Positions 1-23,881 of a stretch of 23,951 bases of DNA are shown in pieces (within the stretch, counting starts at the first letter, position 1; each line of letters begins with the position of its first letter). The DNA lies in IMG/VR virus record IMGVR_UViG_3300014914_000042, positions 1-23,951 of that record; one strand, written 5' to 3'. A program made the translations under genes and the position numbers. Source of the DNA: a virus. The notes under the pieces are model-generated. The model was not told the DNA's origin and searched no databases. It saw only the letters and a program-made list of their open reading frames with translations.

Positions 1-8
1 ATATAAGT

Positions 9-437: not shown

Positions 438-456
438 TACTTTTTAATAAAGAAAT

Positions 457-852
457 ATGACTAAAAATAAAGGCGGAAGACCTACTGTGTTTACTAAAGA
501 AACTATGCAAAAACTTGAACAGGCTTTTGCTATCGGTTGTCCTATTGCAGAAGCGTGTTTCTATGCAGGGATTGCTGAGAGAGCTTACTATAATTATAAA
601 AAATTAAACCCAGAGTTGGTGCAGAATTTGGAAAGGCTGAGGAATAAGCCAGTTTTAAAGGCTAGACAAACTATTGTTAATGGGCTTGGTGAGGCTGACA
701 ATGCAAAATGGTATCTTGAAAGGAAAAGGAAAAAAGAGTTTTCTACTAGAACCGAGCAAGCTGTTGAAGCTTCACTTGTTGATAAAACAGTTGATGCGAC
801 TAAATTCATTAATAACCTATTAGATGACGATAAAGAGGATACGGACGACTAG
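457..852 (+). CDS. terS: Terminase small subunit
   Basis: Likely DNA-recognition subunit of the packaging motor; it would bind the packaging site and load the large terminase. The 131-residue protein opens with the G-G-R-P-T-V-F-T signature common in phage small terminases. A predicted helix-turn-helix follows at residues 15-50 (the I-A-E-A-C-F-Y-A-G-I region, then A-Y-Y-N-Y). Further on are a charged helical segment (residues 55-75) and the residues A-K-W-Y-L-E-R-K, also typical of the family. The tail is acidic. The gene directly precedes, and overlaps by 29 bases, the large subunit, as expected for a coupled pair. The start follows an A-rich leader with no Shine-Dalgarno. The stop is TAG. 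Confidence 0.85.
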   Translation: MTKNKGGRPTVFTKETMQKLEQAFAIGCPIAEACFYAGIAERAYYNYKKLNPELVQNLERLRNKPVLKARQTIVNGLGEADNAKWYLERKRKKEFSTRTEQAVEASLVDKTVDATKFINNLLDDDKEDTDD

Positions 853-2425
853 GGAGTGTTTGATTGTGTTGCGAAAAGCGTATGCAACAGGTGATCAGCA
901 AGTTATTAGTCAAACACGATGGTCGTTAGGAAAAGAATCTTTTAGGGGGTTCGTTTTGGCGTATTATTTCGAAGCAATGAAATATAAAAATGCTGATTTC
1001 TTAGAGAAATGGCAAGACTTATTAGAATTTGATGAGTTTGAAATGATTCTATTAATAGGGTTTAGGGGGTCGGCGAAGACGTCTCTTGCTAAGATATGGG
1101 CTACTAGAGTCATTTTGTATAAGATACATGAGCTTGTCGGATATGTTTGTTATGAGAAAGAAAAGGCTAGTGAATCGTTGTTTGATATTATGACATGGTT
1201 GCAAAGTCACCCTTTGATTATTCAGGATTTTGGTGACCAGTTCGAAAAACCTATTGATTTGAGACCAGAGAAAAAGACTCAAGGGAATTTTGTAACGACT
1301 TCGGGTGTTAGGGTTACGGCTATATCTATTAGTCAGACAGTACGTGGTAAGTTACATGAGTTTGAACGTCCTAATTGTTATATTGTAGACGATTTCGAGA
1401 ATAATACGACGAAAAGGAGTGCTGTGATGACGTTTAAAACTAAAGAGTTCTTTCGTGAATTGCTTTCAGGGTTAGGGAATAATCCCAATTTGTTATTTAT
1501 TTCTAACTACATATCAGATACGGGGTCTGTTGCATGGTTAGAGGGGTTTGCTAATGGAAATAAGGATTTTCATGTTGAAAGGCAACCGTTGATCTTAGAT
1601 GGTAAAATTACATGGCCAGATAAATACGTATTAACAGATACTGAACGTGAAAAATCAAAACAAGAAGAAAAGCCTATATCTATTGAAGCGTTAAAGAGAA
1701 AATTGAATAAAGATGGTGAAAAGGTTTTTGAACAAGAGATGCTGCTTGAGCCTATTACTAAAGGTGATATGTTCTTTGATCGTGAAATTGTTGATAAACG
1801 TATTAAAGCAATTGGAAGTGCTAAGCCTGTGATAAAAGACGGGTGGAAAATTTGGGATGAATACAGAAAGGGTGGGAACTATGCCATTGCTGCGGATGTT
1901 GCCGAGGGGTTCGGGAATGATTCAAGTGTTATACAGGTGATTGATTTAGATAATGGGAAACAGGTAAGGGAATTCGAAAGCAATTTGGTTCAACCTTCTC
2001 GCCTTGGTAAAATGATGGTTGAGCAAGGAGTGAAAGCCAATAATTGTATATTGTGTCCTGAGCGAAACAGTATCGGTGTTGCCGTGGTTGATTCGATCAA
2101 AAATGAGGATTATAATAATATCTATAGGGAAAAAAGTGTTGATAAGATCTCAAACAAACCTGTTCAAAGGTTTGGCTGGTATACAAGTTCAAAAACAAAA
2201 CCAATGATGCTGTTTGAGTTTAAGAGGGATTTTGAGGCTGGTGAGATTGAGATTAATTCGTTGCAATTATTGCGAGAAATGCGGGCATTTACTAATGATA
2301 AGGTGACGGATACAAGGTTTGATTCAGAGTTGTCTAACCATTTTGATAGAGTTATGGCGTTCGCTATCGTGTGGCAAATGAGGAAAGTAAACAGGGTGAA
2401 GGGCTTTGTAAATTATAGTTCATAG
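824..2425 (+). CDS. terL: Terminase large subunit (ATPase and nuclease)
   Basis: Packaging motor and headful or cos nuclease, 533 residues, a normal length. ATPase domain: a Walker A-like G-F-R-G-S-A-K-T-S at residues 79-87 and a Walker B of I-V-D-D-F-E at 187-192. RNase H-like nuclease domain: A-D-V-A-E-G with D358, the acidic residue of C-P-E-R-N at E413, and H-F-D ending at D508, which fit the three metal-binding positions of phage terminases. The start at 824 overlaps the small subunit by 29 bases. A TTG or GTG start at about 860-870 cannot be excluded, because the next in-frame ATG would already remove part of the ATPase domain. The gene ends with TAG and is followed by a 62-base spacer with no clear terminator. 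Confidence 0.95.
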   Translation: MTIKRIRTTRECLIVLRKAYATGDQQVISQTRWSLGKESFRGFVLAYYFEAMKYKNADFLEKWQDLLEFDEFEMILLIGFRGSAKTSLAKIWATRVILYKIHELVGYVCYEKEKASESLFDIMTWLQSHPLIIQDFGDQFEKPIDLRPEKKTQGNFVTTSGVRVTAISISQTVRGKLHEFERPNCYIVDDFENNTTKRSAVMTFKTKEFFRELLSGLGNNPNLLFISNYISDTGSVAWLEGFANGNKDFHVERQPLILDGKITWPDKYVLTDTEREKSKQEEKPISIEALKRKLNKDGEKVFEQEMLLEPITKGDMFFDREIVDKRIKAIGSAKPVIKDGWKIWDEYRKGGNYAIAADVAEGFGNDSSVIQVIDLDNGKQVREFESNLVQPSRLGKMMVEQGVKANNCILCPERNSIGVAVVDSIKNEDYNNIYREKSVDKISNKPVQRFGWYTSSKTKPMMLFEFKRDFEAGEIEINSLQLLREMRAFTNDKVTDTRFDSELSNHFDRVMAFAIVWQMRKVNRVKGFVNYSS

Positions 2426-2487
2426 ATTCAAAGTTCGTTTTTTCTAGGAAATATAGTAAGATGTAAATAGAATATAAAAAAATATAT

Positions 2488-3840
2488 ATGGCTACAGAAA
2501 TAGTTGGTAAAATCGAAAGTGCTAGACTGAAAAAAATCACAGGGTTCGAAGAAATGTTGACTGATACATATTTGAGTAATTTGAATAATAAACAGACAAG
2601 GTTTATTTACGACAAGTTTTTTAAAGGGAGTGCATCGTTAAGGAAACAAAGGCTTTCGCTTTTAAATATATCCTATTCGTTACCTCTTTTAATTTCTGAA
2701 AAGATTGCGGACTATGTGGGGACTCCACAAACAGAGGTTGGAGTTGATTTGCATGATTATATCATGTCATATGCTTGGGGTGGGTATGCTGTTTTTAAAT
2801 GTGAAAAGAGGGATGGAAAGTTTGTTATCACACAACACAATACTGATGGATATGTTAAGAATGATGACGGGTCAGAGGATTTACTAACTTACCTGTTAAG
2901 TGAAAATGCTAATGGTGTGATTGAGAAATATATATTGAAACAAACATACTACAAAGGAACTGTGACAAACAATTTGTATAAGATGGCTAATGCTACTGAT
3001 TCAACAACTACAACATCAGTAATTAGTGAGGACAATCAGTTTGATGGGAGTATCAAGGGGTCGCCTGTGTTATTAAATTCGCTAGATGCTACTGCTCATC
3101 TATCAGAATCAGAAGTATTAGATGGTAGCTTTAACCCTATTGTTGTTGTTAACAATACGAAAATTAGCAGTAAGGTGTACGGAGAAAGTGAGATATCAAA
3201 GGTTAAATCATTGATTTCTTCAATAGAAATACAGTTGGTTAATCTACAGGATCAATTGTTGAAGCACTTACAAGCAAAACTTGCAATACCGACGTCAAAA
3301 TTACCAATTGATAGTAATGGAATGGTTAACATGGCTAATCTTGAAGTTATAGGGATGGAAGCTGGTGATCCAATGCCTCAATATATAATAAATGAAAACA
3401 AACAAATAGAAAAATCTTTTGTACTGATTGAACACATGATCAGGCAAATAGCTGTAGTGTTGTCCATGCCTGTTGATTTCTTTGGATTAAAAAATGAGGG
3501 GGGTGTTGAGAGTAAAGAGGCTAAAATGATAAAACTAAGCCCTTTTATTAAAAAGATTGAAAGAGTGAGAAAGCATTTTACTACAGGATTACAACAATTG
3601 GTGAAGATCTCAAAGAGCTGGGGGGTAACTACTAGCGATGTTATTGTTTGGAGTGGTGTGTTCCCGACTGATAAAGCGGTTGAGGCTAATGAATTATCAA
3701 TAGCTTTGGATAGTCAGTTGATTAGTCGAAAGAAAGCTATAATGAAATACCAAGACATTACTGAGGACGAAGCTAATATAGAAATGGCTTTAATTAATAA
3801 TGATAATGCAACAATAAATGACGAAGACTTACCTATCTAG
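2488..3840 (+). CDS. Portal protein
   Basis: Predicted portal, the dodecameric ring at the capsid vertex through which DNA is pumped. It has 450 residues, at the short end of the SPP1 gp6-like range. Supporting signs are the position between the large terminase and the MuF-type head protein, the early K-x-R-L-S-L-L-N region with L-I-S-E-K-I-A-D-Y-V, a central helical region (about residues 235-330), and the M-P-V-D-F-F-G-L and G-G-V-E-S-K-E-A-K segment (about 327-350) seen at the portal clip and stem boundary. The C-terminus is acidic. The start is preceded by an A-rich leader. Its 3' end overlaps the next reading frame by 23 bases. Assigned by position and family pattern rather than by a catalytic motif. 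Confidence 0.87.
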   Translation: MATEIVGKIESARLKKITGFEEMLTDTYLSNLNNKQTRFIYDKFFKGSASLRKQRLSLLNISYSLPLLISEKIADYVGTPQTEVGVDLHDYIMSYAWGGYAVFKCEKRDGKFVITQHNTDGYVKNDDGSEDLLTYLLSENANGVIEKYILKQTYYKGTVTNNLYKMANATDSTTTTSVISEDNQFDGSIKGSPVLLNSLDATAHLSESEVLDGSFNPIVVVNNTKISSKVYGESEISKVKSLISSIEIQLVNLQDQLLKHLQAKLAIPTSKLPIDSNGMVNMANLEVIGMEAGDPMPQYIINENKQIEKSFVLIEHMIRQIAVVLSMPVDFFGLKNEGGVESKEAKMIKLSPFIKKIERVRKHFTTGLQQLVKISKSWGVTTSDVIVWSGVFPTDKAVEANELSIALDSQLISRKKAIMKYQDITEDEANIEMALINNDNATINDEDLPI

Positions 3841-4564
3841 TGAGCATGAGCAAATGCATAACACCTCGGAAAGGCTAGAAGAGGAATCAGCTATACGGTT
3901 TAACGAACTTATAGGGGTTTTTATTCTTATTGGTGAAAGTGTGCGAACAAAGAAAGAAAAGAAGGCAATGATTAGGCGTGAGGTTTTAAAGATGAACAAA
4001 TGGATTGATAAGTTTAGTGATAACTCTACAAAAATCTATAACAGGTATGTAAAGAAGGCGTATAGGCAAATGGGTAAGCGAGCAAAGCAATTGTCTGGTG
4101 CGCAAGCTAAAGAACGGACTTTGTTAAAAGATGAACTTGTAGGGAATATGAAAGGTAAACTTAGTGATTATGAAAAGAAAGCACAACGGCTTGTATTGAT
4201 GAAAGAGCTTGAGAAGCTTCGAGAAGCTGATCTTGGTTATAAGAATGCAACTGCAAAATCAGTTGTGAATAAAAAAAAATTAAGGAAAAATTTCGTATTC
4301 ATGACAAGTAAGGGGAAAAGGATGAAAACTAATCATATTATGAAACTTGTTGTTGGTGATGCTATATGGCAAACCATGATGAGTGCAAAGGTTAGTACGT
4401 GGACTGATGCTGGTGAGAAGTGGGGTATTTGGCGTTCTATTATTGATAGTAGAACTACTCCATATTGTCGTGCAATGAATGGTAAAAAAATAGATATAAG
4501 AACGCATGCGATACCGCCAGTGCATTATGCTTGTAGATCTACAGTTGAAATCATAAATAAATAA
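3818..4564 (+). CDS. MuF-type minor head protein (SPP1 gp7-like)
   Basis: Minor capsid protein of 248 residues, expected inside the head close to the portal. The C-terminal 50 residues carry the MuF signature: W-x-S/I-I-I-D-S-R-T-T-P-Y-C, then M-N-G-K, then P-P-V-H-Y-A-C-R-S-T. These conserved Cys and His positions define the domain. The N-terminal 150 residues are strongly basic and helical. The start at 3818 lies inside the portal gene. An in-frame ATG at 3854, just after the portal stop, is an equally reasonable start and would remove 12 residues. No toxin domain is fused to the MuF part, unlike in some Firmicutes prophages. Confidence 0.85.
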   Translation: MTKTYLSSEHEQMHNTSERLEEESAIRFNELIGVFILIGESVRTKKEKKAMIRREVLKMNKWIDKFSDNSTKIYNRYVKKAYRQMGKRAKQLSGAQAKERTLLKDELVGNMKGKLSDYEKKAQRLVLMKELEKLREADLGYKNATAKSVVNKKKLRKNFVFMTSKGKRMKTNHIMKLVVGDAIWQTMMSAKVSTWTDAGEKWGIWRSIIDSRTTPYCRAMNGKKIDIRTHAIPPVHYACRSTVEIINK

Positions 4565-4570
4565 AACAAT

Positions 4571-4735
4571 ATGCAAAAATGGGCAAAAGTATCATTGAAT
4601 CAAATGCTACAAGTTACAAAGAAGGAGCTTTATATCATGCGAAGGAATAGTGCTATCAGATTTATACCTGTGTTTGTTATTTATTCGTTATTAAGCATTT
4701 CTTTATTAAAATTGGCACAGTATATGTTGACTTAA
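4571..4735 (+). CDS. Small single-pass membrane protein, unknown
   Basis: A 54-codon frame lying six bases after the MuF gene. Its ATG follows the same A-rich, Shine-Dalgarno-free context (ACAAT before ATG) as its neighbours. The first 30 residues are basic and polar (K-W-A-K, K-K-E-L, M-R-R-N). Residues 31-50 form one hydrophobic helix rich in I, L, V and F. It ends with TAA two bases before a good promoter, so it would close the first late transcription unit. No function is recognised. It could be a membrane-active accessory peptide or simply a short unconserved frame. Confidence 0.5.
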   Translation: MQKWAKVSLNQMLQVTKKELYIMRRNSAIRFIPVFVIYSLLSISLLKLAQYMLT

Positions 4736-4736
4736 T

Positions 4737-4765
4737 TTGACCAATTGGCAAAAAGTGACTATTAT
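4737..4765 (+). promoter_or_regulatory. Sigma70-type promoter for scaffold and capsid genes
   Basis: TTGACC at 4737-4742 and TATTAT at 4760-4765 with an exact 17-base spacer. The -35 box is identical to that of the promoter after the holin. It lies in the only sizeable gap before the scaffold gene and would start RNA at about 4772. It matches the need for extra capsid and scaffold RNA. Confidence 0.6.
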
Positions 4766-4771
4766 TTAAGT

Positions 4772-4882
4772 GCATGCTAATCCGTTTTAGGAAAAACGTT
4801 AAAAGTTCCCGACATGATTGTCGTTAAAAAATCTTTACGTCTTGATATAGACGGTAAAATTAATATTTTAACATAAGTAATT
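4772..4882 (+). promoter_or_regulatory. Structured 5' leader of the scaffold-capsid transcript
   Basis: About 110 bases between the predicted start of transcription and the scaffold ATG. It contains two short stem-loops: CGACA/TGTCG around 4810-4823, and CGTCT/AGACG around 4838-4853. A 20-codon frame (4814-4876, starting M-I-V-V-K-K) lies inside and ends six bases before the scaffold start. It could be a leader peptide or chance. There is no Shine-Dalgarno before the scaffold ATG. Confidence 0.35.
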
Positions 4883-5575
4883 ATGGAACAAGAAGCAGCA
4901 GTGAAAGAAGCTATCGCAGAACACTACAACTCTCTTACGGAGGATGAGCAGGGGAAGTTTGATGCAATGTCTGATGAAGATAAAGAACTTCATAATAAAG
5001 AAATCGCCGCTAAGTTGAAATCAAAACATGAGGAAGGGGGAAGCAATGACGACAAAGTGCCTCTTGCTAAAATGCTTGAGTATAAACGACAGGCGAAAGA
5101 AAATGCGGAAAAGTTAGCTAAGTATGAGAATGAAGCTAAACTGAAAAAAGAAGCGGACATGGCTAAGAATGGGGAATACAAAGAACTCCTCGAAGCCAAA
5201 ACCACTGAACTTGAAAGCTTAGTAGCTGAAAATGCGGAGCTAAAAGACCACCTGGGTGTGTTCACCAAAGGAATTGATGAGAAAGTTGATAAATTTTTAA
5301 ACTCTATCACAGACGATACAGATAAAGAAATGATCGAGGCAATTCTAAGCGGTAAAAATGCGAGTGAAAAGGCTAATCTATTACCAGCACTTCAAAGCAA
5401 GTTCGGACATCCTGACAATATTAATAATAATAATGTTAAAGGGAGTCATAAACCGCCTACTAGCGAAGTTGAGATTGCGGAACTTCAAACAAAAATTGAC
5501 TCGGCTGTCAAAGACGGTAAACCAATGGATGTTTTAAAGCTTCAAGCTCAATTAAGAACGCTAAGGGCGAAATAA
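4883..5575 (+). CDS. Capsid scaffolding protein
   Basis: Predicted internal scaffold that guides assembly of the major capsid protein and then leaves the procapsid. It has 230 residues and is very rich in Glu, Lys and Ala. The long central coiled coil (residues about 65-130, with runs such as A-K-E-N-A-E-K-L-A-K-Y-E) and the hydrophilic, low-complexity linker (I-N-N-N-N-V-K-G-S) at about 180 are typical of gp20-like scaffolds. The basic C-terminal helix (about 195-230) would be the capsid-binding end. It lies 20 bases before the major capsid gene. No protease motif is present, so any maturation protease would have to be elsewhere. Confidence 0.85.
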   Translation: MEQEAAVKEAIAEHYNSLTEDEQGKFDAMSDEDKELHNKEIAAKLKSKHEEGGSNDDKVPLAKMLEYKRQAKENAEKLAKYENEAKLKKEADMAKNGEYKELLEAKTTELESLVAENAELKDHLGVFTKGIDEKVDKFLNSITDDTDKEMIEAILSGKNASEKANLLPALQSKFGHPDNINNNNVKGSHKPPTSEVEIAELQTKIDSAVKDGKPMDVLKLQAQLRTLRAK

Positions 5576-5595
5576 TTCACTAATCAAAAACAATT

Positions 5596-6783
5596 ATGCC
5601 TAATTTACAAAATTCTCAAGAATATAATGCAATACATATTCCTGACGTTAACCAAGTTTTCACTAGTCTAATGAAGAACAAACCAATGGTCTCTTCTATA
5701 ATTGGAATGAGTGGAAAAGCTCTTAATCACAAACATGAATGGTTAGAGTACAAAAAAAGTCCTACACAATGGCAAACTGATGGAGCAACTGTTGCAGGTG
5801 TAACTACACTAACTTTCGACAGTACTGAGGGGGTACAAGTTGGAGACGTATTGAAATTCACTGCATCCACTGGTGCATCTATTTCTGTTAAAGTTAAAGT
5901 CCTTACTGTTGTTGACGCAACTGATATTACAGTGACTCGACCATATGGTGGGACTACTGATATGACTATTCCTGATAATGCTATCGTTTCTCTTATCTCA
6001 AGAGCTAAAAACGAAAACAGTGGAGAAGGTCTTGGAGAAAATGTTAAACCTTCAAGAGTATTCAACTTCACACAAATTTTCAGACGTGATCTTGGTCTTT
6101 CAAGAACTACTTTACAAACTGCTCTTTACGGTTTAGCTACTGAAGCTGATCGAAATGCTAAGGTTGAAGAATTAGTTAACTTCCAAGTTGCTAATCAACT
6201 AGCTGATATCGCTTACGAGTTCAACAACTCACTAATCGATGGTGTGAAAGAAGAACGTGTAGACGGTGCTGCTGCTGGTTCATTCGGTGGTATACTTCCA
6301 TTCATGGAAGCTCAAGCTTCATCTCAATATGACGCATCAGCAAATTCTGTTTCTTCTCTAATCTTGAACAACGCTATTGATCAAGCAGTAGGAAACGGAG
6401 CAAACGGAACAGAATTAACTGTTTTGCTTTGTCATCCAACTCAAGCACGAAAAATCTCTGCTTTCAACACATCTGGAAACAATCCAGTAATGAGTAGAAC
6501 AGAAACAGTTTCAGGTTCTTATGTTGTTCAATATCAATCTGATCTTGCTGGAACAAATGGAGGGGCTTTAACAACTATCGTTGTTGACAGAAACTTCCCA
6601 CAAGACAAAATTGCTATCTTGAACCCAGAAAGTTTAAACATTGCACCAATGCAAAACTTCTTCGTACAAGAAACAACTGATCTAAAAACTGACGGACGAA
6701 CTTGGAAATTACTAGGAGAACTTACTCTAGAATTCAAGAACGCTGCAGATTCATCAATGTTAATTCACAATTTAGCTTTATAA
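5596..6783 (+). CDS. Major capsid protein (HK97 fold, SU10-like family)
   Basis: Main shell protein, 395 residues. The region around residues 155-180 (N-F-T-Q-I-F-R-R-D-L-G-L-S-R-T-T) resembles the conserved N-x-x-Q-I-F stretch of the SU10 (DUF5309) capsid family. Residues about 65-140 form a beta-rich insert (V-G-D-V-L-K-F then Y-G-G-T-T-D) seen in the same family. The C-terminal strand ends L-E-F-K-N-A-A-D-S-S-M-L-I-H. The codons look more biased (many GAA, GCT, AAC, TTC) than in neighbouring genes, as expected for the most abundant protein. A strong terminator follows 26 bases after the stop, so scaffold and capsid form a bounded unit. Confidence 0.9.
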   Translation: MPNLQNSQEYNAIHIPDVNQVFTSLMKNKPMVSSIIGMSGKALNHKHEWLEYKKSPTQWQTDGATVAGVTTLTFDSTEGVQVGDVLKFTASTGASISVKVKVLTVVDATDITVTRPYGGTTDMTIPDNAIVSLISRAKNENSGEGLGENVKPSRVFNFTQIFRRDLGLSRTTLQTALYGLATEADRNAKVEELVNFQVANQLADIAYEFNNSLIDGVKEERVDGAAAGSFGGILPFMEAQASSQYDASANSVSSLILNNAIDQAVGNGANGTELTVLLCHPTQARKISAFNTSGNNPVMSRTETVSGSYVVQYQSDLAGTNGGALTTIVVDRNFPQDKIAILNPESLNIAPMQNFFVQETTDLKTDGRTWKLLGELTLEFKNAADSSMLIHNLAL

Positions 6784-6808
6784 GTTAGTTATTAAACAGT
6801 GAAAAGAT

Positions 6809-6833
6809 AGAGAGCAGAAATGCTCTCTTTTTT
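6809..6833 (+). terminator. Intrinsic terminator after the capsid gene
   Basis: A perfect 8-bp stem, AGAGAGCA with TGCTCTCT, closed by a GAAA tetraloop and followed at once by TTTTTATTTTTATTTATT. The position directly after the capsid gene fits a transcript ending there. Confidence 0.88.
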
Positions 6834-6897
6834 ATTTTTATTTATTAATGAAAATACGATATACTATAAATGAAATATATATATAACTATTAAATAT

Positions 6898-7170
6898 ATG
6901 AAAGCATTTGAAGCACAAAAAGGGAAAAGAATTTATTGCATAACTGGCGATATCTTTTTCGTTGCTTCGATTTACAAAACTGATAAAAAGGAAGAAATAG
7001 AAGCTCTTGATAGATGTTTAGATGTTAAAGAGGTGAAGTCTAAAACAGTAAAAGCTGATATTCAAGGTGATTATGAATTTGAGGGAAAGGTGTACAAAAC
7101 CGAAGCAGCAATGAAGGGGGCAATGACTAAAGCAGCTAAAAAAGAAGAAGTAAAAGAAGAAACAGAATAA
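6898..7170 (+). CDS. Small head-region protein, unknown
   Basis: A 90-residue protein. Residues 1-65 look like a small mixed alpha/beta fold (K-R-I-Y-C-I-T-G-D-I-F-F-V-A and E-I-E-A-L-D-R-C-L-D-V-K-E-V), and residues 70-90 form a lysine- and glutamate-rich tail. Short proteins of this build are common after capsid genes in metagenomic phages, but I do not know their role; a decoration or connector accessory role is a guess. The start follows the run of TATA repeats after the capsid terminator, with no Shine-Dalgarno. Transcription must either read through that terminator or start from a weak upstream signal. Confidence 0.7.
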   Translation: MKAFEAQKGKRIYCITGDIFFVASIYKTDKKEEIEALDRCLDVKEVKSKTVKADIQGDYEFEGKVYKTEAAMKGAMTKAAKKEEVKEETE

Positions 7171-7189
7171 TCTAATCACAAAAACAACT

Positions 7190-7480
7190 ATGTTTAATCA
7201 ACAAATAATCCCTACACAAGCAGTACCTGGGCAATATGGTCTTGTGATTGTTAATCCTGACGGGTCAACAGTTGGAGGAGGGGTTCAAGGAACTTTATCT
7301 TTAATAAAAGAACAATCGGACTATTTGCAAACGTTTTCATATCTAGATGCTGGTGCTGCTGATGAACGTGTGAGTACAATAGTTCACAATTCAGCTACTC
7401 TTTCACAAAGCATTACAGAAACTTTTGCTTATACTGGATCAGCGGGGAATTATAGAATATCAACAATAACACTATCATAA
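7190..7480 (+). CDS. Small structural-type protein preceding the fibre
   Basis: A 96-residue protein with no membrane segment and a beta-rich look (the segment Y-L-D-A-G-A-A-D-E-R-V-S-T-I-V-H, then Y-R-I-S-T-I-T-L-S at the end). It stops one base before the fibre ATG, so it is probably translated together with the fibre and may be its partner or attachment protein. No catalytic motif is visible. The function is unknown; the link to the fibre is inferred from spacing and composition. Confidence 0.65.
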   Translation: MFNQQIIPTQAVPGQYGLVIVNPDGSTVGGGVQGTLSLIKEQSDYLQTFSYLDAGAADERVSTIVHNSATLSQSITETFAYTGSAGNYRISTITLS

Positions 7481-7481
7481 C

Positions 7482-10400
7482 ATGGGATTATCCGACACAA
7501 TTAAACATTTAAACGGGATAGGTGGAAAACATAAAGCTAAAGATATAAAAATTACTGATACAGGTGGTTTATATACGAGTGACAACGTTGAGGAAGCTTT
7601 ACAAGAAATCGGGGATAAAAGTATGACTGATCCAATGACAACAAGAGGTGATGTTATTGTTCGTGATTCGAGTAATGCAACTGCTAGACTTGGAGTAGGT
7701 ACAGACGGACAAGTTCTTACTTCTGACGGTACAGATATTAGTTGGGAGGATTCTGTAGGGGGAGAAGCTTCAACTGGGGCAGTAGTAAAACCAACTATCA
7801 CAGATAATGGAGATGGCACTATTGATATAGGAACTAATGGTGTTGTTAATTATATGACTACTGCTGACGGTGTTAGTGGAGTAATAGAAAGAGTTAATGC
7901 AACAACAGGTGTAACAGCTTTAGCATTGACTGATGGTGTTAATAATTATGTTTATTCTGATTATAATGCAGGTTCTCCAATTTATGCAGTAACAGTTAAT
8001 TCATCAGAATTTGGAGCAGATTATAGGAAAATACCTTTAGCTAAAATTTCAAAAGAAGGAAATGAACTGTATATGATGGAATATGATTCACAAGGTATTC
8101 TATTGGCAAATAAACACCTAATGAAAGACACGATCCTTAATGACCCACAAAGACAAGACGGTTTAACATTATCGACTTCTGCTACTAGAATTTCAACAAT
8201 CAGTTCAGGTTCTGCTTGGTTCTCGGTCGAGAGATATTCTTTAGCTGAAAATGTTTCAGGAACTTCTGGGACACTTACAGAATGTTATTTAACTGCTGGT
8301 ACTTGGAATAAAGCAGTAGTAACTTCATACGATTCAACTTATTATTCAGACGGTACAGATAGACAATCATTAGGGACAAACAAATATGTCGCTAAATATT
8401 TCTTTAGGGGTATTGGAGATGATAATGATGTTTATTATACTCATGGAGATACTTATAATTCAGAAGCTTCGGCTTTATCAGAAGCCGTGCCACCTACACC
8501 GTTTATAATATCTTCTCATGCTTTGTATGTTGGTAAAATAGTAATAAAACAAGGTGAAACGAATGGTACAGCTTATCCTAGAGCTTGGGGAACATCAGTT
8601 GTAGGTTCTGCAGTACAAAATCACGACGATTTGGCTAATATCAACCAAGCAGGTACTGGTATTGCAAATGGTCATATTGATGACGGTGTACAAACTATTG
8701 CAGGTGTAAAAACCTTTAGCGATGGTATTGTTGGAGATATAACGGGAAATGCAGACACAGCAACAGCTTTAGAAACTGCTAGAAATATTGCAGGACAAAG
8801 TTTTAATGGTACAGCTGATATAGATATAGCATCTACTGATTTAACTGATACAGCTAATATAGCTAAACTAGATGCAGCTAATACATTTACAAATACAGGG
8901 GATAATAGCTTTGCTGGTAATGTAGGAATAGGAACGACTAGTCCAGCAGAAAAACTAGATGTTATTGGGGATGCTCACTTTTCTGCGAATGGAAATAGTG
9001 GAGTAGAAATAAAAACAAATTCATCTAACACAGGTTTAATCACAGCACACAATCTATCTCCAGCAGACCCTGGTACAAGTACAATAAGCGAGGGTGCAAA
9101 CTTTGGGTTTAATGGGGCACCCTCTAATTTTTTCGGAATGGGGTTAGGTGCAATTAGAAATGGCAAGTGTGATATTTGGTTTCAAACTGGAAATATCAAT
9201 GGAGGCGGTTATAGATTTTATAAGGGTATAACTGAACTGGTTACAATATCGAAAGATGGTGATATAGGCATAGACGCACCAAATCCAATAGAAAAACTCG
9301 ACATTGACGGAAAAGCATCAAGTTCATTTATAAGAATGTGCAATAACAATACTGGGAGATTAGACAATGAGGGATTATATGTTGGTGTTGCAGGGACAAC
9401 GGGAGAAGGATATATTGGAACAAGACATAATAAAGCATTACATTTTAGAACAAACCAAAAAGACGCTCTATTTATAGACATAAATCAGAATGTAGGTATG
9501 AACACAACTACACCACAATTTTTATTAGATCTTGATAAGGATATACCTACTATTCTAAAAGCAGGAGATGATAAGCCTATATACCTAATGAGAGATTGTG
9601 CAGTAGGATTTAACGGTTATTATGATAATGGCTGGAAATATGGTAAAGGGTCTAGTAGTGATTATGCAGTATATACAGCAATCAACGCTGGTTTAGGTAC
9701 ATATACTATCGCAATTACAGAAAATGCTGGGGACGATGGAGACGAAGCAGTTTTTTCAGAGGTGGTAACAATTACTAAGGACAAAAATGTAGGTGTTGGA
9801 ACAACTAGTCCAGATACAAAACTACATATTCACGATGCAGAAAGTGATGCAACCATTACGCTATCTGGAGACGATGCAACTGCTGGTATAGGTAGAATTA
9901 ATTTTACAGATACTACAAGTGGCTATACAACATTATTTAATGTTCTTGGCTCTAATAGGGCGGGTGATGACAGTAATCGATTGACGTTATGGACTACACC
10001 GAATGGTTCAAATTATCATAAATATTTTACAGCACTAGAAAATACTGCAGAAGACAATAGTGCAGGTGATATGGCGTTTGCTGGGAAAATAGGTATAGGA
10101 ACAGATGCACCAACAACAGAACTTGAGGTTGTTGGTGATATAACAAGCGTTGGAACTAAATGGACTGCTAGAACAAGTGCTGCAAATAATGGTTGGTATG
10201 GTATTGCATATGGTAACGGAATGTTTGTAACCACTAGTGATACTGGTACTGGTAACAGAGTTATGACCTCACCAGATGGTATCAACTGGACTTCAAGAAC
10301 AAGTGCTGCAAATAATAATTGGAGTGGCGTTGCGTATGGTAATGGTCTTTTTGTGGCAGTTGCTTATACTGGTACTGGTAACAGAGTTATGACTTCACCA

Positions 10401-11237
10401 GATGGTATTAATTGGACTGCTAGGACAAGTGCTACAGATAATCGTTGGATTAGCATTACATATGGCAATGGAATGTTTGTGGCAGTTGCTTATAGTGGTA
10501 CTGGTAACAGAGTTATGACCTCACCAGATGGTATCAACTGGACTTCAAGAACAAGTGCTGCAGATAATAATTGGATTAGCGTTACATATGGTAACGGTCT
10601 TTTTGTGGCAGTTGCTTATACTGGTACTGGTAATAGAGTTATGACCTCACCAGATGGTATTAATTGGACTGCTAGGACAAGTGCTACAGATAATCGTTGG
10701 CGTGGCGTTACATATGGTAACGGTCTTTTTGTAGCCGTTGCTTATACTGGTACTGGTAATAGAGTTATGACCTCACCAGATGGTATTAACTGGACTTCAA
10801 GAACAAGTGCTGCAAATAATAATTGGAGTGGCGTTGCGTATGGTAATGGACTTTTTGTAGCCGTTGCTTATAGTGGTACTGGTAATAGAGTTATGACCTC
10901 ACCAGATGGTATTAATTGGACTTCAAGAACAAGTGCTGCAAATAATAATTGGCGTGGCGTGGCGTATGGTAACGGAATGTTTGTAACCACTAGTGATACT
11001 GGTACTGGTAACAGAGTTATGACCAGTGGTAAACAGCTTGTGAATGAACAATCCAATAAAATTGAACACGGCGAAAAGAGCTTCACTGGTAATGTAGGTA
11101 TTGGAACAACTAGTCCTACTTCTAAACTACAAGTAACAGGATTACCTGAATACACAAACAATACAACAGCAACAGCAGGCGGTTTAACAGCTGGAGCTTT
11201 TTATAGAACAGGAGATACACTAAAAGTCGTACATTAA
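7482..11237 (+). CDS. Large fibre protein with seven-blade propeller repeats
   Basis: A 1251-residue fibre. Residues 1-95 are a typical fibre N-terminus (N-V-E-E-A-L-Q-E-I-G, then T-T-R-G-D-V-I-V and G-Q-V-L-T-S-D-G). The shaft carries six spaced repeats of the N-V-G-I-G-T-T-S-P type at about residues 480, 593, 669, 769, 869 and 1204, each followed by K-L-x-V/I. Residues 894-1187 are seven 42-residue units with W at the start and an Asp-box-like S-P-D-G-I-N-W. The last 30 residues (A-G-G-L-T-A-G-A-F-Y-R-T-G-D ending K-V-V-H) match a C-terminus common on phage fibres. There is no S74 chaperone domain. Its place between capsid and connector genes is unusual for a tail fibre and raises the option of a head fibre. 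It probably binds host surface sugars or proteins (inference). Confidence 0.88.
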   Translation: MGLSDTIKHLNGIGGKHKAKDIKITDTGGLYTSDNVEEALQEIGDKSMTDPMTTRGDVIVRDSSNATARLGVGTDGQVLTSDGTDISWEDSVGGEASTGAVVKPTITDNGDGTIDIGTNGVVNYMTTADGVSGVIERVNATTGVTALALTDGVNNYVYSDYNAGSPIYAVTVNSSEFGADYRKIPLAKISKEGNELYMMEYDSQGILLANKHLMKDTILNDPQRQDGLTLSTSATRISTISSGSAWFSVERYSLAENVSGTSGTLTECYLTAGTWNKAVVTSYDSTYYSDGTDRQSLGTNKYVAKYFFRGIGDDNDVYYTHGDTYNSEASALSEAVPPTPFIISSHALYVGKIVIKQGETNGTAYPRAWGTSVVGSAVQNHDDLANINQAGTGIANGHIDDGVQTIAGVKTFSDGIVGDITGNADTATALETARNIAGQSFNGTADIDIASTDLTDTANIAKLDAANTFTNTGDNSFAGNVGIGTTSPAEKLDVIGDAHFSANGNSGVEIKTNSSNTGLITAHNLSPADPGTSTISEGANFGFNGAPSNFFGMGLGAIRNGKCDIWFQTGNINGGGYRFYKGITELVTISKDGDIGIDAPNPIEKLDIDGKASSSFIRMCNNNTGRLDNEGLYVGVAGTTGEGYIGTRHNKALHFRTNQKDALFIDINQNVGMNTTTPQFLLDLDKDIPTILKAGDDKPIYLMRDCAVGFNGYYDNGWKYGKGSSSDYAVYTAINAGLGTYTIAITENAGDDGDEAVFSEVVTITKDKNVGVGTTSPDTKLHIHDAESDATITLSGDDATAGIGRINFTDTTSGYTTLFNVLGSNRAGDDSNRLTLWTTPNGSNYHKYFTALENTAEDNSAGDMAFAGKIGIGTDAPTTELEVVGDITSVGTKWTARTSAANNGWYGIAYGNGMFVTTSDTGTGNRVMTSPDGINWTSRTSAANNNWSGVAYGNGLFVAVAYTGTGNRVMTSPDGINWTARTSATDNRWISITYGNGMFVAVAYSGTGNRVMTSPDGINWTSRTSAADNNWISVTYGNGLFVAVAYTGTGNRVMTSPDGINWTARTSATDNRWRGVTYGNGLFVAVAYTGTGNRVMTSPDGINWTSRTSAANNNWSGVAYGNGLFVAVAYSGTGNRVMTSPDGINWTSRTSAANNNWRGVAYGNGMFVTTSDTGTGNRVMTSGKQLVNEQSNKIEHGEKSFTGNVGIGTTSPTSKLQVTGLPEYTNNTTATAGGLTAGAFYRTGDTLKVVH
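10161..11042 (+). repeat. Seven tandem 126-bp coding repeats (propeller blades)
   Basis: Seven in-frame copies, each exactly 126 bp, with Trp codons at 10161, 10287, 10413, 10539, 10665, 10791 and 10917. Copies 2-6 are nearly identical. Two subtypes alternate: T-S-R-T-S-A-A-[ND]-N-N (copies 2, 4, 6, 7) and T-A-R-T-S-A-T-D-N-R (copies 3, 5). Copies 1 and 7 share the variant M-F-V-T-T-S-D-T, and copy 7 drops the Asp-box Trp end, so these cap the array. Confidence 0.95.
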
Positions 11238-11249
11238 GACTACTAATAT

Positions 11250-11275
11250 AGGGAGGTTTTGTAGTTCCTCCCTTT
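11250..11275 (+). terminator. Possible terminator after the fibre gene
   Basis: A 7-bp GC-rich stem, AGGGAGG with CCTCCCT, with a 10-base loop, then TTAAAATAAA. The U-tract is short, so termination may be partial. It lies 13 bases after the fibre stop. Confidence 0.5.
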
Positions 11276-11312
11276 AAAATAAACTACACATTTAAAACTT
11301 ATTAAAAAAACT

Positions 11313-11447
11313 ATGTTTAAAATTACAGAAGAAACACTACAAAAGGTTGTAAACTATATGGCTCAACAACCATATGCACAAGTTTTTCAGCTAATAGCTG
11401 AGCTACAACAACTAGAAAAAATTGAAGAAAAAGAAACTAAAAAATAA
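11313..11447 (+). CDS. Short fibre-associated helical protein, unknown
   Basis: A 44-codon frame beginning after an A-rich leader (TTAAAAAAACT before ATG). The peptide is helical: I-T-E-E-T-L-Q-K-V-V-N-Y, then Q-P-Y-A-Q-V-F-Q-L-I-A-E-L-Q-Q-L-E, with a charged tail. Small proteins with this pattern (L-Q-x-V-x-N-Y-x-x-x-x-P-Y-x-x-V-x-x-L-I) are common next to phage fibre genes, but their role is not known to me. It ends one base before the next start, which supports real coupled translation. Confidence 0.65.
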   Translation: MFKITEETLQKVVNYMAQQPYAQVFQLIAELQQLEKIEEKETKK

Positions 11448-11448
11448 C

Positions 11449-12090
11449 ATGACAATAGAATACATATCACAGGCAGGACTACTCGGAGTTGGGGCAATAG
11501 CAATATTTCTTACGTACTTATATTTTAAAAAGAAACTAGACGAAACCCCGGTATCAAATCCACAAAAACACAGGTTCTTTAACCTTGTTGAATATGAACT
11601 ATTAAACAGAATCCCAAACATAAAACTTTATCATAATGAGGTGTATTGTAAAGGTAGGACTGAATTGTTCAGGGATATATTACAGATCAAATTTAAACAT
11701 TGGGAGGATGGGTTAAGAGAAGCAATGGTAATGGGAAATGACAAGATGAGTGACAATGAATTACAATCACTTCTAGAAAGGGCGACATTAAACTTCGTAA
11801 AAGGTTATCAAAGAGAGTGGAAAGACACACTACAACTAGATAAAGATAAAATAGCACTTGTAACTAATAAATTTAATAAGTGGCATCAGAGTAAAGTAGA
11901 GATGTACATGGATTCTATTAGAGGAATTTGCCAGGGAAATTCTTTTAGTTCAGTAAGGGAAAAGGCTAATGCTTTCCTAGAGGTTAATTGCTCAATGTTG
12001 ATACTCACAATTATTGATGCAGAGGAAAGTTTGGGGAGTTTAAACGGAGATTTATCAGGTACACAATACAAGGATAACATAATAAAATAA
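11449..12090 (+). CDS. Membrane-anchored protein of the fibre cluster, unknown
   Basis: A 213-residue protein with an N-terminal membrane segment at about residues 6-25 (the G-L-L-G-V-G-A-I-A-I-F-L-T-Y-L-Y-F stretch), then a K-K-K stop-transfer signal. This orientation places the remaining 185 mostly helical, charged residues in the cytoplasm. I chose the start at 11449, directly after the previous stop, over an in-frame ATG at 11422 that lies inside the preceding gene. No known domain is recognised. The position, between a fibre and connector genes, is unusual for a membrane protein. It could be a superinfection-exclusion or assembly factor, but nothing in the sequence proves either. Confidence 0.75.
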   Translation: MTIEYISQAGLLGVGAIAIFLTYLYFKKKLDETPVSNPQKHRFFNLVEYELLNRIPNIKLYHNEVYCKGRTELFRDILQIKFKHWEDGLREAMVMGNDKMSDNELQSLLERATLNFVKGYQREWKDTLQLDKDKIALVTNKFNKWHQSKVEMYMDSIRGICQGNSFSSVREKANAFLEVNCSMLILTIIDAEESLGSLNGDLSGTQYKDNIIK

Positions 12091-12095
12091 GCGTT

Positions 12096-12125
12096 TTGTT
12101 CCCTATTGTCCTGATATGTTATACA
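12096..12125 (+). promoter_or_regulatory. Weak candidate promoter before the connector genes
   Basis: TTGTTC at 12096-12101 and TATACA at 12120-12125 with an 18-base spacer, in the 69-base gap before the connector gene. The boxes match the consensus only partly. Confidence 0.25.
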
Positions 12126-12159
12126 CTAAAATCAGTATTAATATTATTAATAAAAAAAT

Positions 12160-12768
12160 ATGATTGTAACAGTAGACGAAATAAAGACATATTTATATGG
12201 AACAACAGTACCTGCAAGTTATGACACTCTGTTTACACAGTTGATAAATGAAGTTGAGGCAGAAATAAAATCATATACTGGTGTCGTTATCGGTAATGAT
12301 ACAGAGTATGTATCTATTTCAAATGAGGTTGGCGACGGTGCTAATGTTCCTGTAATTAGAACTAGGTACAAACCTGTTAGAACACTTACAAAAATTGAGG
12401 TAAAGGATACAGATTTTAATTGGGTTGAAAACACTGATCAAGATTTATCAAATATTGATATAGATGGCAGTGTTATTCATACTAAAAGTGTTTATGCTAG
12501 GGGTGTTATGAATTTAAAATTTTCATATACGGCAGGATATTTAACAACTGAAGTTCCAGAGGATTTAAAAAGGTGTGCGATTATGATGGTTATTAGTGCT
12601 TTTAATAAAAGGGAATCAATCGGATATAATTCGCAAGATGTATTAGATTTAAGTTTAGCTATATCAAATACAACACCTATTGAAATAGCTAATATTTTAG
12701 AAGAGTATAGGGGAAACTATTTGGAAAAAAATAGGATAAGAGTCGAAAATGCAGCAGCAACTTATTAA
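12160..12768 (+). CDS. Head-tail connector (gp6-like adaptor)
   Basis: Predicted adaptor ring beneath the portal, 202 residues. The N-terminus (V-T-V-D-E-I-K-T-Y-L, then D-T-L-F-T-Q-L-I-N-E-V-E-A-E-I-K-S-Y-T-G) is the recognisable helical start of the gp6/gp15-like connector family. A beta region follows with P-V-I-R-T-R-Y-K-P-V-R-T-L and then A-G-Y-L-T-T-E-V-P-E-D-L-K-R-C-A, both typical of the fold. It starts a run of connector and tail genes with minimal spacing. At 202 residues it is somewhat longer than the shortest members. Confidence 0.85.
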   Translation: MIVTVDEIKTYLYGTTVPASYDTLFTQLINEVEAEIKSYTGVVIGNDTEYVSISNEVGDGANVPVIRTRYKPVRTLTKIEVKDTDFNWVENTDQDLSNIDIDGSVIHTKSVYARGVMNLKFSYTAGYLTTEVPEDLKRCAIMMVISAFNKRESIGYNSQDVLDLSLAISNTTPIEIANILEEYRGNYLEKNRIRVENAAATY

Positions 12769-12779
12769 GCACAAACATT

Positions 12780-13097
12780 ATGAGAACAAACATGGTTTTT
12801 ACGACATACAGGAGGATCACAGAGGGGAGCGAAAGGAAATACAGCACTACGCCTACACTTGAGAATGTAACGGGCTATATGACGCCATTAACAGCTGAAA
12901 AGAGTGCGATGCTGGGTGTTGATTATGCTGTTGACACATATAGTGTGCAAACAGATTCACAAGATTTTGAAAGGCATGATAAAATTGTAATTGCATTCCC
13001 TACACTTTTGGCTGGTGACTATTATGTAACAGGGTTAAAGAAACATTTCCTTAATGGATTAGAGAAAAGTAGTTTAATAATAAACCAAGATGCTTAG
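12780..13097 (+). CDS. Head closure (stopper) protein
   Basis: A 105-residue beta-rich protein (R-I-T-E-G-S-E-R-K-Y, then F-E-R-H-D-K-I-V-I and G-D-Y-Y-V-T-G-L-K-K). Its size and place between the gp6-like connector and the gp10-like protein are those of a head-tail stopper, which would seal the head after packaging and join it to the tail. There is no decisive motif. Its end overlaps the next gene by eight bases (ATGCTTAG), so the two are translationally coupled. The stop is TAG. Confidence 0.7.
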   Translation: MRTNMVFTTYRRITEGSERKYSTTPTLENVTGYMTPLTAEKSAMLGVDYAVDTYSVQTDSQDFERHDKIVIAFPTLLAGDYYVTGLKKHFLNGLEKSSLIINQDA

Positions 13098-13509
13098 TAT
13101 CGAGATTGATCAGAAAAAAGTGGGAACAATGCTTGCACTTGCACCGGAAAAAACACGGAATGCATTAAAAAAATCATTACAAGAAAGTTCTGCATTCGTT
13201 CAGAAAGATGCTCAAAAACTAGCACCTCTAGACACTGGCGAATTAAGCAAAAGTATAACAACTAAGGTTCATGGGCATCATTATGCAAAGATAGGGACAA
13301 GTCTGGTTTATGCAGCGATACAGGAATATGGTGGAACTATAAAGGCTAAAAACAAACCGTATTTACATTTTAGAACAAAGTCAGGGAATTGGGTAAAGGT
13401 CAAAAGTGTTGTTATAAAGGCTAGAAAATACATGGAAGGAGCGTATAAAAAGAATATAAAGAAGGTTGTTAAAACGTTTGAAAAGAATATAGATGCAATA
13501 TTTAAATAA
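13090..13509 (+). CDS. HK97 gp10-like tail completion protein
   Basis: A 139-residue protein of the HK97 gp10 family, which acts at the head-tail joint or tail end. The core is clear: A-Q-K-L-A-P-L-D-T-G-E-L at residues 41-52, then S-L-V-Y-A-A-I-Q-E-Y-G-G-T at about 71-83 (the A-P-x-D-T-G-x-L and Y-A-x-x-x-E-Y-G-T signature), then an aromatic P-Y-L-H-F region. The C-terminal 35 residues are strongly basic and helical. Confidence 0.9.
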   Translation: MLSIEIDQKKVGTMLALAPEKTRNALKKSLQESSAFVQKDAQKLAPLDTGELSKSITTKVHGHHYAKIGTSLVYAAIQEYGGTIKAKNKPYLHFRTKSGNWVKVKSVVIKARKYMEGAYKKNIKKVVKTFEKNIDAIFK

Positions 13510-13515
13510 AAATTT

Positions 13516-13953
13516 ATGAGTTTAATCAGTATTAGAACACAGATAGTATCATTGTTAGATAATATAAAAGTAGCAGCTGGATTTAATGCTGTTTATTATG
13601 ATGCACCAACGTCTATCAATGTAACTCCTGCTGTAGCTGTTATTTTGGGCGGATTTAGTGAAGAAATTGGATCAAATGCGGGAAACATTTTAAACTGTAC
13701 ATATACAATCCGTGTAATGGTTGAAAAAAAGGAAAGTGATTTTAATGATGTTGAACAAACAAGTAAAGTTTTAAACATTACAGATGCAATTCTTGCTGAA
13801 TTTAGGAAAAAAGAAAACACAACGCTTAGTGGAGCATCGTATTCAATGATGACTGCAAATGGATCTCCGTTACAAATAGGCGAACTTGAGCAAATTAACG
13901 TATTTTATGTTAATATAGAACTAGCTGTAAAAGAATATAATTCAATTTGTTAA
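13516..13953 (+). CDS. Tail terminator protein
   Basis: A 145-residue protein that fits the tail terminator (gpU-like), the ring that stops tail tube growth and joins the tail to the head. The N-terminal helix I-R-T-Q-I-V-S-L-L-D is followed by the beta strands of the fold (A-V-A-V-I-L-G-G-F, then C-T-Y-T-I-R-V-M-V-E). The second helix begins at about residue 75 (V-E-Q-T-S-K-V-L-N-I-T-D-A-I). Called mainly by position directly before the tail tube block and by secondary structure pattern. Confidence 0.78.
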   Translation: MSLISIRTQIVSLLDNIKVAAGFNAVYYDAPTSINVTPAVAVILGGFSEEIGSNAGNILNCTYTIRVMVEKKESDFNDVEQTSKVLNITDAILAEFRKKENTTLSGASYSMMTANGSPLQIGELEQINVFYVNIELAVKEYNSIC

Positions 13954-13962
13954 TAAAAAAAT

Positions 13963-14139
13963 ATGGATAAAGCTAAAAAAACAGTAATGAATGATGAAAA
14001 AAAGGAAAAAGTTGTTAAAAAAGAAGAAGTAAAAAAACAACCTATGAAAGACTTTGTTTTTTTTGAAACAGATAAAAATGTTATAATAAAAGCAATGGAT
14101 CTAAAAGAGGCAACAGAAAAATATAATCTAAAAAAATAA
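13963..14139 (+). CDS. Short lysine-rich protein next to the tail tube
   Basis: A 58-codon frame, too short for routine prediction, that fills the gap before the tail tube gene. The start is preceded by TAATAAAAAAAT. Residues 1-28 are a charged K/E-rich stretch. Residues 30-58 look like a small folded part (F-V-F-F-E-T-D-K-N-V-I-I-K-A-M-D-L-K-E-A). The next ATG begins one base after its stop. Its build is reminiscent of the lysine-rich protein at 6898, but no function is recognised. Confidence 0.6.
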   Translation: MDKAKKTVMNDEKKEKVVKKEEVKKQPMKDFVFFETDKNVIIKAMDLKEATEKYNLKK

Positions 14140-14140
14140 T

Positions 14141-15121
14141 ATGGTTAATCAATTAGGAAGACTAAATGGAATAGGTTTAGCAAAAGAAGCAGTGAGAGGA
14201 ACAGCAATAGCAACGCCAGATTTTTGGTTACAATGGGAAGCTATCAACCATGATGATGTTGTTACATATGTTGACAATGTGAGTGGTAGTGGTTCAGTTG
14301 TTGATTCTAGAGGTAGTGAGGTTGTATCTAAACATGCTGAAGGCGGTTATGATTTCTTAATCGGGTCAGAATCTTTTGGATTACCTTTGCTGTCTACACT
14401 AGGTGCTGTATCAAGTGCTGCTGCTGGTGGTGAGACTGCTGTATATGATCATACATTCACACTAACTAATACAAGTGAAAGACAAACGTTAACAGTGTTT
14501 GAGGATACACCAAATGGTGATCGAAGTTTTGCAAATGCTGTTTCTTCAGGAATTTCAATCAGTTTTGAAGCTGGTAAATTAATGAATTATAGTCTTGGGT
14601 TGACTTCATTTTCTGGAGAATCAAAAACGCTTTCTGCTAGTTGTCCTGTGGAAAATGTTTTTAGGCCACAAGATTTCAGTATTAAAATGGCTGATGATGT
14701 TGCTGGTTTAGATGCTGCTTCAGTAATAGTAGTAAAAACTGCTTCGGTAGAAATTGCATGCGCTGCAACTCCAAACGTTGTACTAGGTCAATTAAACCCT
14801 GCTGATATATTAAGTGGTACGTTCGGCATAACTGGTAAATTTTCTTTACTAATGGACGATGCAACTTATACAGATTTACAACTAAATGGATCACATAAAG
14901 CACTTAGATTATCACTACAAAATGGTGATGTTGATATCGGTGTAGCTTCGCATCCTGGATTCACGATGGATTTGAGCAAATGTTTCTTTCAAGAAATATC
15001 AAACAGTAAAGGACTTGATGATTTAGTTGAGCAAGAAGTTACATTTAAAGCGACTATTGATTGTGCAACTGGATTGATAGTTGACAATGTGGTTCTTACA
15101 AATACAACTGCAAGCTACTAA
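14141..15121 (+). CDS. Major tail tube protein
   Basis: Predicted tail tube subunit of 326 residues. The N-terminus (G-R-L-N-G-I-G-L-A-K-E-A-V-R-G-T-A) is a familiar opening of phage tail tube proteins. The body is almost all beta strands with many Ser, Thr and Gly, and includes the glycine-rich turn S-S-A-A-A-G-G-E-T-A. It lies between the terminator and the tape-measure chaperone, where a tail tube protein is expected. At 326 residues it is longer than simple tube proteins and probably carries an extra surface Ig-like part near the C-terminus (inference). Confidence 0.85.
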   Translation: MVNQLGRLNGIGLAKEAVRGTAIATPDFWLQWEAINHDDVVTYVDNVSGSGSVVDSRGSEVVSKHAEGGYDFLIGSESFGLPLLSTLGAVSSAAAGGETAVYDHTFTLTNTSERQTLTVFEDTPNGDRSFANAVSSGISISFEAGKLMNYSLGLTSFSGESKTLSASCPVENVFRPQDFSIKMADDVAGLDAASVIVVKTASVEIACAATPNVVLGQLNPADILSGTFGITGKFSLLMDDATYTDLQLNGSHKALRLSLQNGDVDIGVASHPGFTMDLSKCFFQEISNSKGLDDLVEQEVTFKATIDCATGLIVDNVVLTNTTASY

Positions 15122-15144
15122 TATTAATTAAAAAAGTAAAAAAT

Positions 15145-15456
15145 ATGGATAATATTTTCGTAGATGATTCACTAATAAAGATTGATTTAAAAGATGGTTT
15201 ATTTGTAGAAGTGACTGCAAGTATGTCATATGTAGAGTTTAAAACTTTATTTGCAAAGGGTGAGCAAACTGATTTAGATTTCTTAGTGGCAGTTGTAAAG
15301 AAATGGAACTTTAAAAGTAAAGATGGTGTAGAAATGCCATGTAATGAGGACAATATAAGAAAGCTCTCCTCTAAAATGGTTATGCCATTAGCTAGTGAAT
15401 TGATTCAAATTTATATGCCGGAAAAAAAAATTCTACAGGACTCTATAAAAAAATAG
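15145..15456 (+). CDS. Tape-measure assembly chaperone, unshifted form (gpG-like)
   Basis: A 103-residue protein in the position of the tail assembly chaperone that coats the tape measure during tail building. Residues 7-45 include D-D-S-L-I-K-I-D-L-K, and the rest is helical (C-N-E-D-N-I-R-K-L-S, then A-S-E-L-I-Q-I-Y-M-P). It is the short product of a frameshift pair: it ends with TAG at 15454-15456, directly after the second A-rich slip site. The longer form is listed separately. Confidence 0.82.
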   Translation: MDNIFVDDSLIKIDLKDGLFVEVTASMSYVEFKTLFAKGEQTDLDFLVAVVKKWNFKSKDGVEMPCNEDNIRKLSSKMVMPLASELIQIYMPEKKILQDSIKK

Positions 15457-22139: not shown

Positions 22140-22428
22140 ATGATTACACCAATGGATTACAACCCCAGTAGGTGGGGATGGCGATATGGGAGTAAGATGG
22201 GGCGGAATACTAACACATATCAAAAAGTATGTTAGGGACTGGAATAATAGAAACAATAACATGGCACATGGAATAGCTCTTACTGGGTTTGATAAAGAAA
22301 AGAAAGTCTTCTATTTGGCTAATAGTTGGGGCGATGCTAAAAGCGAGAGAATGATTAGATTTGAAGACCTCTACAAGGTGTATGCAAATATCACATTTGT
22401 AGAAGGTGTTACAGTTTTTAAAAAATAA
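22140..22428 (+). pseudogene. Broken second papain-like peptidase copy
   Basis: A second, incomplete copy directly after the first. A canonical-looking ATG at 22140 (after GATTAATT) opens a 31-codon frame that ends at 22235. The frame beginning at 22186, shifted by +1, carries the conserved His-Asn half: N-M-A-H-G-I-A-L-T-G-F-D then Y-L-A-N-S-W-G, ending at TAA 22428. The Cys half is missing. The simplest reading is a deletion plus a frameshift in a duplicated gene. A +1 recoding or a functional 80-residue product from 22186 cannot be ruled out, since the His-Asn frame is undamaged. Without the Cys it should not be an active peptidase by itself. Confidence 0.6.
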
Positions 22429-23826: not shown

Positions 23827-23843
23827 ATAAATATTCTTATTTC

Positions 23844-23881
23844 ACTTTTTACACTTTTTACCACTTTTTACGACTTTTTAC
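23844..23881. repeat. Four ACTTTTTAC direct repeats
   Basis: Copies start at 23844, 23853, 23863 and 23873, a 9-10-10 base spacing close to one helical turn. An inverted partial copy (GTAAAAA) follows at about 23890. Such phasing is typical of iterons or arrays of operator sites. Confidence 0.7.

Follow-up and report, generated by a model that had tools for sequence, protein, structure and literature searches.

The locus and its array of 126-bp units

The window analysed here is a virus record of 23,951 bases (IMGVR_UViG_3300014914_000042). An ORF at 7482 to 11237 (+ strand) encodes a fibre-like protein of 1251 aa with a match to a tail fiber family (PHROG phrog_1833, E 1.5e-6). This protein has an N-terminal TSDNVEEALQEIG motif, a C-terminal LKVVH and six modules of the form (N/D/K)-(V/I)-G-(I/V/M)-x-T-x-x-P-x-x-x-L. 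A repeat array lies between the fibre module KIGIGTDAPTTELEVVGD, directly upstream (10086 to 10139, +), and the fibre module NVGIGTTSPTSKLQVTG, downstream (11091 to 11142, +), and probably forms a propeller module near the tip of this tailed-phage fibre-like protein. A second record, IMGVR_UViG_3300014913_000005 (34,241 bases), derives from the same phage: positions 1 to 15234 of the window differ from it by a single base, at 13921, and the seven units of the array are identical in the two contigs, which may share reads. As both ends of the second record overlap one stretch of the window, the map is probably circular.

The upstream neighbour of the fibre gene encodes a major capsid protein of the SU10_MCP family (5596 to 6783, +; Pfam PF17236, E 5e-40; PHROG 1328) and the downstream neighbour a head-tail adaptor (12160 to 12768, +; PHROG 442, E 2e-16; Pfam PF05135). 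As the fibre gene is thus situated in the head module, a capsid-attached fibre is possible, and its attachment site may be the head or neck instead of the tail tip. In Bacillus phage 268TH002, which has a related capsid protein, the capsid gene is followed by one annotated as encoding a head fiber protein. No similarity was found between this protein and the 96-aa protein preceding the fibre in the window, or between the N-terminal part of the fibre and the two large genes that follow the capsid gene of Vibrio phage 1.284.A. Among relatives, the propeller genes are found after tape-measure and Dit genes (L013), after a tape-measure gene (L009) and before a tail protein gene (L012). Since these propeller proteins are carried in tail modules, the position of the gene in the head module may not mirror the location of the protein on the virion.

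Several other features of this phage were noted. A 22-bp tandem repeat lies downstream of the capsid gene, ahead of the next small gene (6843 to 6895), and a short tandem repeat, CACTTTTTAC, occurs in four copies at 23843 to 23881. Two neighbouring genes (21538 to 22137 and 22186 to 22428), which precede an Amidase_2 endolysin gene, resemble papain-like cysteine proteases, with a Peptidase_C1 match below the cut-off (E 0.0017). These putative protease genes show a Cys in SPSCSTHAF, a His in STHAIVITGF and an NSWG motif, the second gene having the His/Asn half only. A small gene at 9 to 437 resembles another gene elsewhere in the genome (L098, 8141 to 8551) and shares a SIDRID.RGY motif; these genes perhaps encode HNH-type endonucleases, although no HNH match was obtained in Pfam for the gene at 9 to 437.

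As originally predicted, the array consists of seven in-frame units of exactly 126 bp (42 residues), which span 10161 to 11042 and correspond to residues 894 to 1187 of the protein. Self-identity was 0.87 at a lag of 126 as compared to 0.23 to 0.34 at lags of 42, 84, 125 and 127, indicating that the repeats are not due to chance. The units run on the + strand from 10161 to 10286, 10287 to 10412, 10413 to 10538, 10539 to 10664, 10665 to 10790 and 10791 to 10916, and the seventh (10917 to 11027) is a full repeat only up to about 11024 to 11027, where it ends at strand c (NRVMTS). Unit pairs differ by 6 to 30 nt. The near identity at the DNA level that had been proposed holds for blades 1 to 6 (73 to 95% over 126 nt; 82 to 95% for neighbouring units in the middle of the array), but the range drops to 67% when blade 7 is included; the low values involve this blade, the last 18 nt of which (SGKQLV) are non-repeat sequence. 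Blades 1 and 7 are the most divergent, and the median amino acid identity between blades of this array is 0.80. Alternating subtypes, also proposed, can be seen as S/A at residue 3 and N/R at residue 11 but are confined to the first third of the unit. An expansion by 252-bp steps was not borne out, as even- and odd-lag identities did not differ significantly (p = 0.2 for all seven blades, p = 0.1 for blades 2 to 6).

Predicted fold, ring closure and the short Asp-box

A model generated by AlphaFold2 from an alignment of 32 sequences, from both viral and bacterial loci, was a closed ring of 28 strands in order (7x4), with a pLDDT of about 94 to 99 for the propeller and a pTM of 0.78. The best match among solved structures (VIA-align, PDB) was virginiamycin B lyase, 2z2o (Z 33.1, 2.3 A, 276 residues), which is a seven-bladed propeller and has a sequence identity of 13% to the array over the common fold. 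The next match was the highly repetitive propeller 2ymu (Z 29.4), and the top Foldseek matches were Ycf48. A profile-based sequence search of the PDB gave weak matches alone, the best being to Ycf48 (E 0.015). The model predicts a closed ring of seven blades with four strands each, and together with the whole-ring match to 2z2o and the Foldseek matches it supports the closed seven-blade propeller that had been suggested from the repeats.

The strand order in the model is 1 + 7x3 + 6, such that a lone d-strand precedes blade 1 and blade 7 contains only strands a, b and c. The lone strand, K-W-T-A-R-T (10158 to 10175, +; strand E35-37 of the model), would pair with blade 7, its K-W-T-A-R completing this blade as the fourth strand in a 1+3 'velcro' closure. 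The W-T-x-R N-terminal end and the NRVMTS C-terminal end are common to nearly all of the aligned relatives. A special relation between blades 1 and 7 had been read as a matching of ends at ring closure; the relation is real, but the end match would stem from the N-terminal d-strand, and the tract shared by these two blades is a separate, exchange-like feature.

Six SPDGINW motifs are present between 10269 and 10919 (+), with starts at 10269, 10395, 10521, 10647, 10773 and 10899, and each falls after strand c and before strand d in the model. In Asp-box propellers, the short Asp-box has the form S/T-x-D/N-x-x-x-W/F/Y and lies in the loop that joins strand 3 to strand 4, closure is of the 1+3 type and there are at most n-1 motifs (PMC2716378). 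The array has six motifs for seven blades and a strand order that fits such a closure; the lack of SPDGINW from blade 7 would be explained by the N-terminal d-strand standing in for its missing fourth strand. The Asp-box-like motif of the original prediction is thus present but belongs to the short form: S-P-D-G-I-N-W is one residue short of the full 8-residue Asp-box, S-x-D-x-G-x-T-W. A Pfam search gave no match to a BNR/Asp-box family. Pfam matches to DUF4982 and RHS_repeat were rejected as chance hits to the repeats, since no single stretch passes alone.

Origin of the blades and a proposed constraint on their number

Identical residues in different blades of the window array are encoded by the same codon at a frequency of 0.83, as compared to 0.42 expected from phage codon usage and 0.38 between these blades and those of other genomes. 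The closest blades in other genomes have about 85% protein identity. These values imply that the blade is old and conserved while the array was recently made or homogenised, a pattern that Pereira and Lupas describe in other propellers (PMC9218822). The median blade identity exceeds the 60% used to define highly repetitive, recently amplified propellers, and the codon sharing provides the accompanying relatedness at the DNA level. The blade variants are mosaic. The first part of blade 7 is similar to that of blades 2, 4 and 6. From nt 49 to nt 108 it matches blade 1 without a single difference (p 0.0015 uncorrected; about 0.03 when corrected for 21 pairs), as against 10 differences over nt 1 to 48. 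Near sites are more compatible than far ones (linkage decay, p about 0.001). The proposal of recent expansion or recombination among blades is thus sustained by both codon sharing and linkage decay. Comparable exchange signals were observed in L013, L118, L036 and one L124 array, and were absent, by the same test, from L104, L108, L111, L014 and L012. A PHI-like test of the window array on third codon positions only was not significant (p 0.4; nine sites, hence low power), and this loss of signal means that clustered selection could contribute. Duplication would have generated the blades, and blade-to-blade exchange would maintain their likeness while the requirement to close a seven-membered ring holds their number fixed.

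Blade number was assessed by running a blade profile over fetched relative loci and counting distinct arrays with strong blades that were clear of a contig edge. Seven units were present in 87 of 116 arrays and fourteen in 7, the remainder having 3 to 6, 8, 11 or 22; because a seven-blade query was used to retrieve the loci, the counts may be biased to sevens, though the search patterns lay within single blades. Identical proteins from different samples retained their counts: 35 units in L007, L008 and L010, and 7+7 in L014, L015 and L016. Arrays with intact ends and other counts were found in L118 and L130 (five units each), L131 (six) and L035 (eight). Structure prediction for the five-blade array of L118 gave an open, unclosed form, with the N-terminal closing strand absent and poor confidence past the fifth blade. 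The existence of such arrays indicates that the count can change but does so uncommonly, and some of them could reflect assembly collapse. Searches for close relatives that started from the capsid, portal, tape measure and fibre N-terminus yielded the sister contig or distant matches only, and a literature search found nothing direct on repeat variation in phage propellers. In addition, the protein encoded at 2 to 6118 of L007 has at least 2038 aa and carries five complete seven-bladed propellers of the same type (35 blades), L008 and L010, from other samples, being alike. Three consecutive propeller genes of seven blades each occur at 1246 to 4939 of L019, and the Magnetococcales bin of L041 to L044 contains at least four paralogous propeller loci.

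The original prediction held that repeat number could change the adhesin and host range, and the array could in principle be a length-variable contingency locus, in which one or two units are gained or lost through slippage or recombination, with an effect on blade number and hence on receptor choice. Neighbouring units in the middle of the array are similar enough to recombine, the mosaics look exchange-like and a few relatives have five, six or eight units with intact ends. Nevertheless, we consider such a locus very unlikely: the sister contig of the same phage likewise has seven units, exactly seven is the count in most of the arrays, identical proteins keep their 7+7 or 35 units across samples, the five-blade relative is predicted to lack the closing strand and the even/odd step is absent. 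That the count of seven is itself an assembly artefact, due to collapse or expansion of near-identical units, is less credible still. Short reads can collapse 126-bp repeats, and the source is a metagenome contig whose sister may share its reads; however, the units can be told apart by their nucleotide differences, both contigs give the same count, and seven is the structural optimum as well as the mode of the relatives.

Probable role of the propeller and comparison with known systems

In a set of 43 seven-blade arrays, variability was highest at unit positions 11, 13, 27 and 28 and lowest in strand c and the c-d hairpin. In the model, the four variable positions would lie where strands a and b reach the d-a/b-c end of the blade, which corresponds to the top face. 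In Asp-box propellers, function resides on the top face whereas the Asp-box face has a structural role (PMC2716378), a rule that the variability of the 43 arrays matches. Each unit would supply strands d-a-b-c, the six SPDGINW hairpins would hold the bottom rim and the variable top-face residues would form a repeated, near seven-fold symmetric ligand-binding surface, whose ligand would most likely be a host cell-surface glycan or protein. Receptor or glycan binding is the best reading given the flanking fibre modules, the fibre-family match and the phage precedents. The propeller probably binds something on the bacterial surface, and it may have an adhesin role and an effect on host range.

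It is also conceivable that the propeller is an enzyme, a glycosidase or lyase acting on a capsule or glycan, since virginiamycin B lyase is the best fold match and glycosidases are frequent among Asp-box propellers (PMC2716378). We regard this as improbable because it is difficult to see where nearly identical blades would accommodate an asymmetric active site, the identity to 2z2o is low over the shared fold and blades 1 to 6 have few variable residues. Somewhat less remote, though still doubtful, is the idea that the propeller serves the fibre as a structural spacer or oligomerisation platform and binds no ligand. The near seven-fold symmetry and the lack of unique surface residues would suit such a role, and the propellers of the phi11 receptor-binding protein form a platform within the trimer; the hypervariability of the top-face residues across relatives points instead to selection for binding. 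It is highly probable, in our judgement, that the array is a short-Asp-box seven-blade ring near the fibre tip, which binds ligand through its top face and evolves by duplication and exchange with a count fixed by closure. We are far more tentative about a wider scenario, in which a head fibre of a siphophage bears a near seven-fold lectin-like propeller, the module passes by exchange between head fibres, tail-tip proteins and surface proteins of bacteria, and ongoing gene conversion spreads top-face variants; we think this unlikely.

Recently amplified propellers of Asp-box type are already known, and the array is a well-supported but ordinary example. It provides a natural case in which blades were recently copied within one gene and the count is seven or multiples of seven in more than 100 relatives, and hence a simple system for studying the limits that ring closure sets on repeat expansion. 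Should the host be bound through the top face, exchange could spread one binding variant around the whole ring at once.

Recently amplified, highly repetitive propellers have been described by Pereira and Lupas (2022, PMC9218822) and by Afanasieva (2019, PMC6805158). Those of Pereira and Lupas likewise have near-identical blades throughout the ring, lineage-by-lineage amplification at the DNA level and peaks at 7 and 14 blades. Their set stresses WD40 and VCBS blades and already includes viral cases, whereas here a short-Asp-box blade is found in a phage fibre. The Asp-box propellers of Quistgaard and Thirup (2009, PMC2716378) share with the array the n-1 motifs and a top face that varies over a conserved bottom, and their 1+3 closure is the type predicted here; the short motif is usually present in one or two of their blades, but in six of seven here. 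Among database proteins, several BFVD fibre proteins of uncultured Caudovirales contain this propeller, and one of them, A0A6J7WX40 (1020 aa), has 55% identity over the propeller; it is named for an intramolecular chaperone domain and has other fibre modules, whereas the window protein has no such Pfam match. A protein of the giant virus Hokovirus HKV1 named for collagen triple helix repeats (BFVD A0A1V0SF56) has 51% identity to the propeller, a sequence match which suggests wide transfer of the blade. Propellers are also found in the phage receptor-binding proteins phi11 gp45 (5 blades), PRD1 P2 and PhiKZ gp131C (7 blades) (PMC4901313), to which the profile search of the PDB gave no sequence match. 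In these, as here, a propeller forms part of a virion protein for which receptor contact is proposed, and in phi11 the ring is closed by an N-terminal strand (PMC4901313), as we infer for the window protein. The blades of these three proteins are divergent, in contrast to the near-identical blades of the array.
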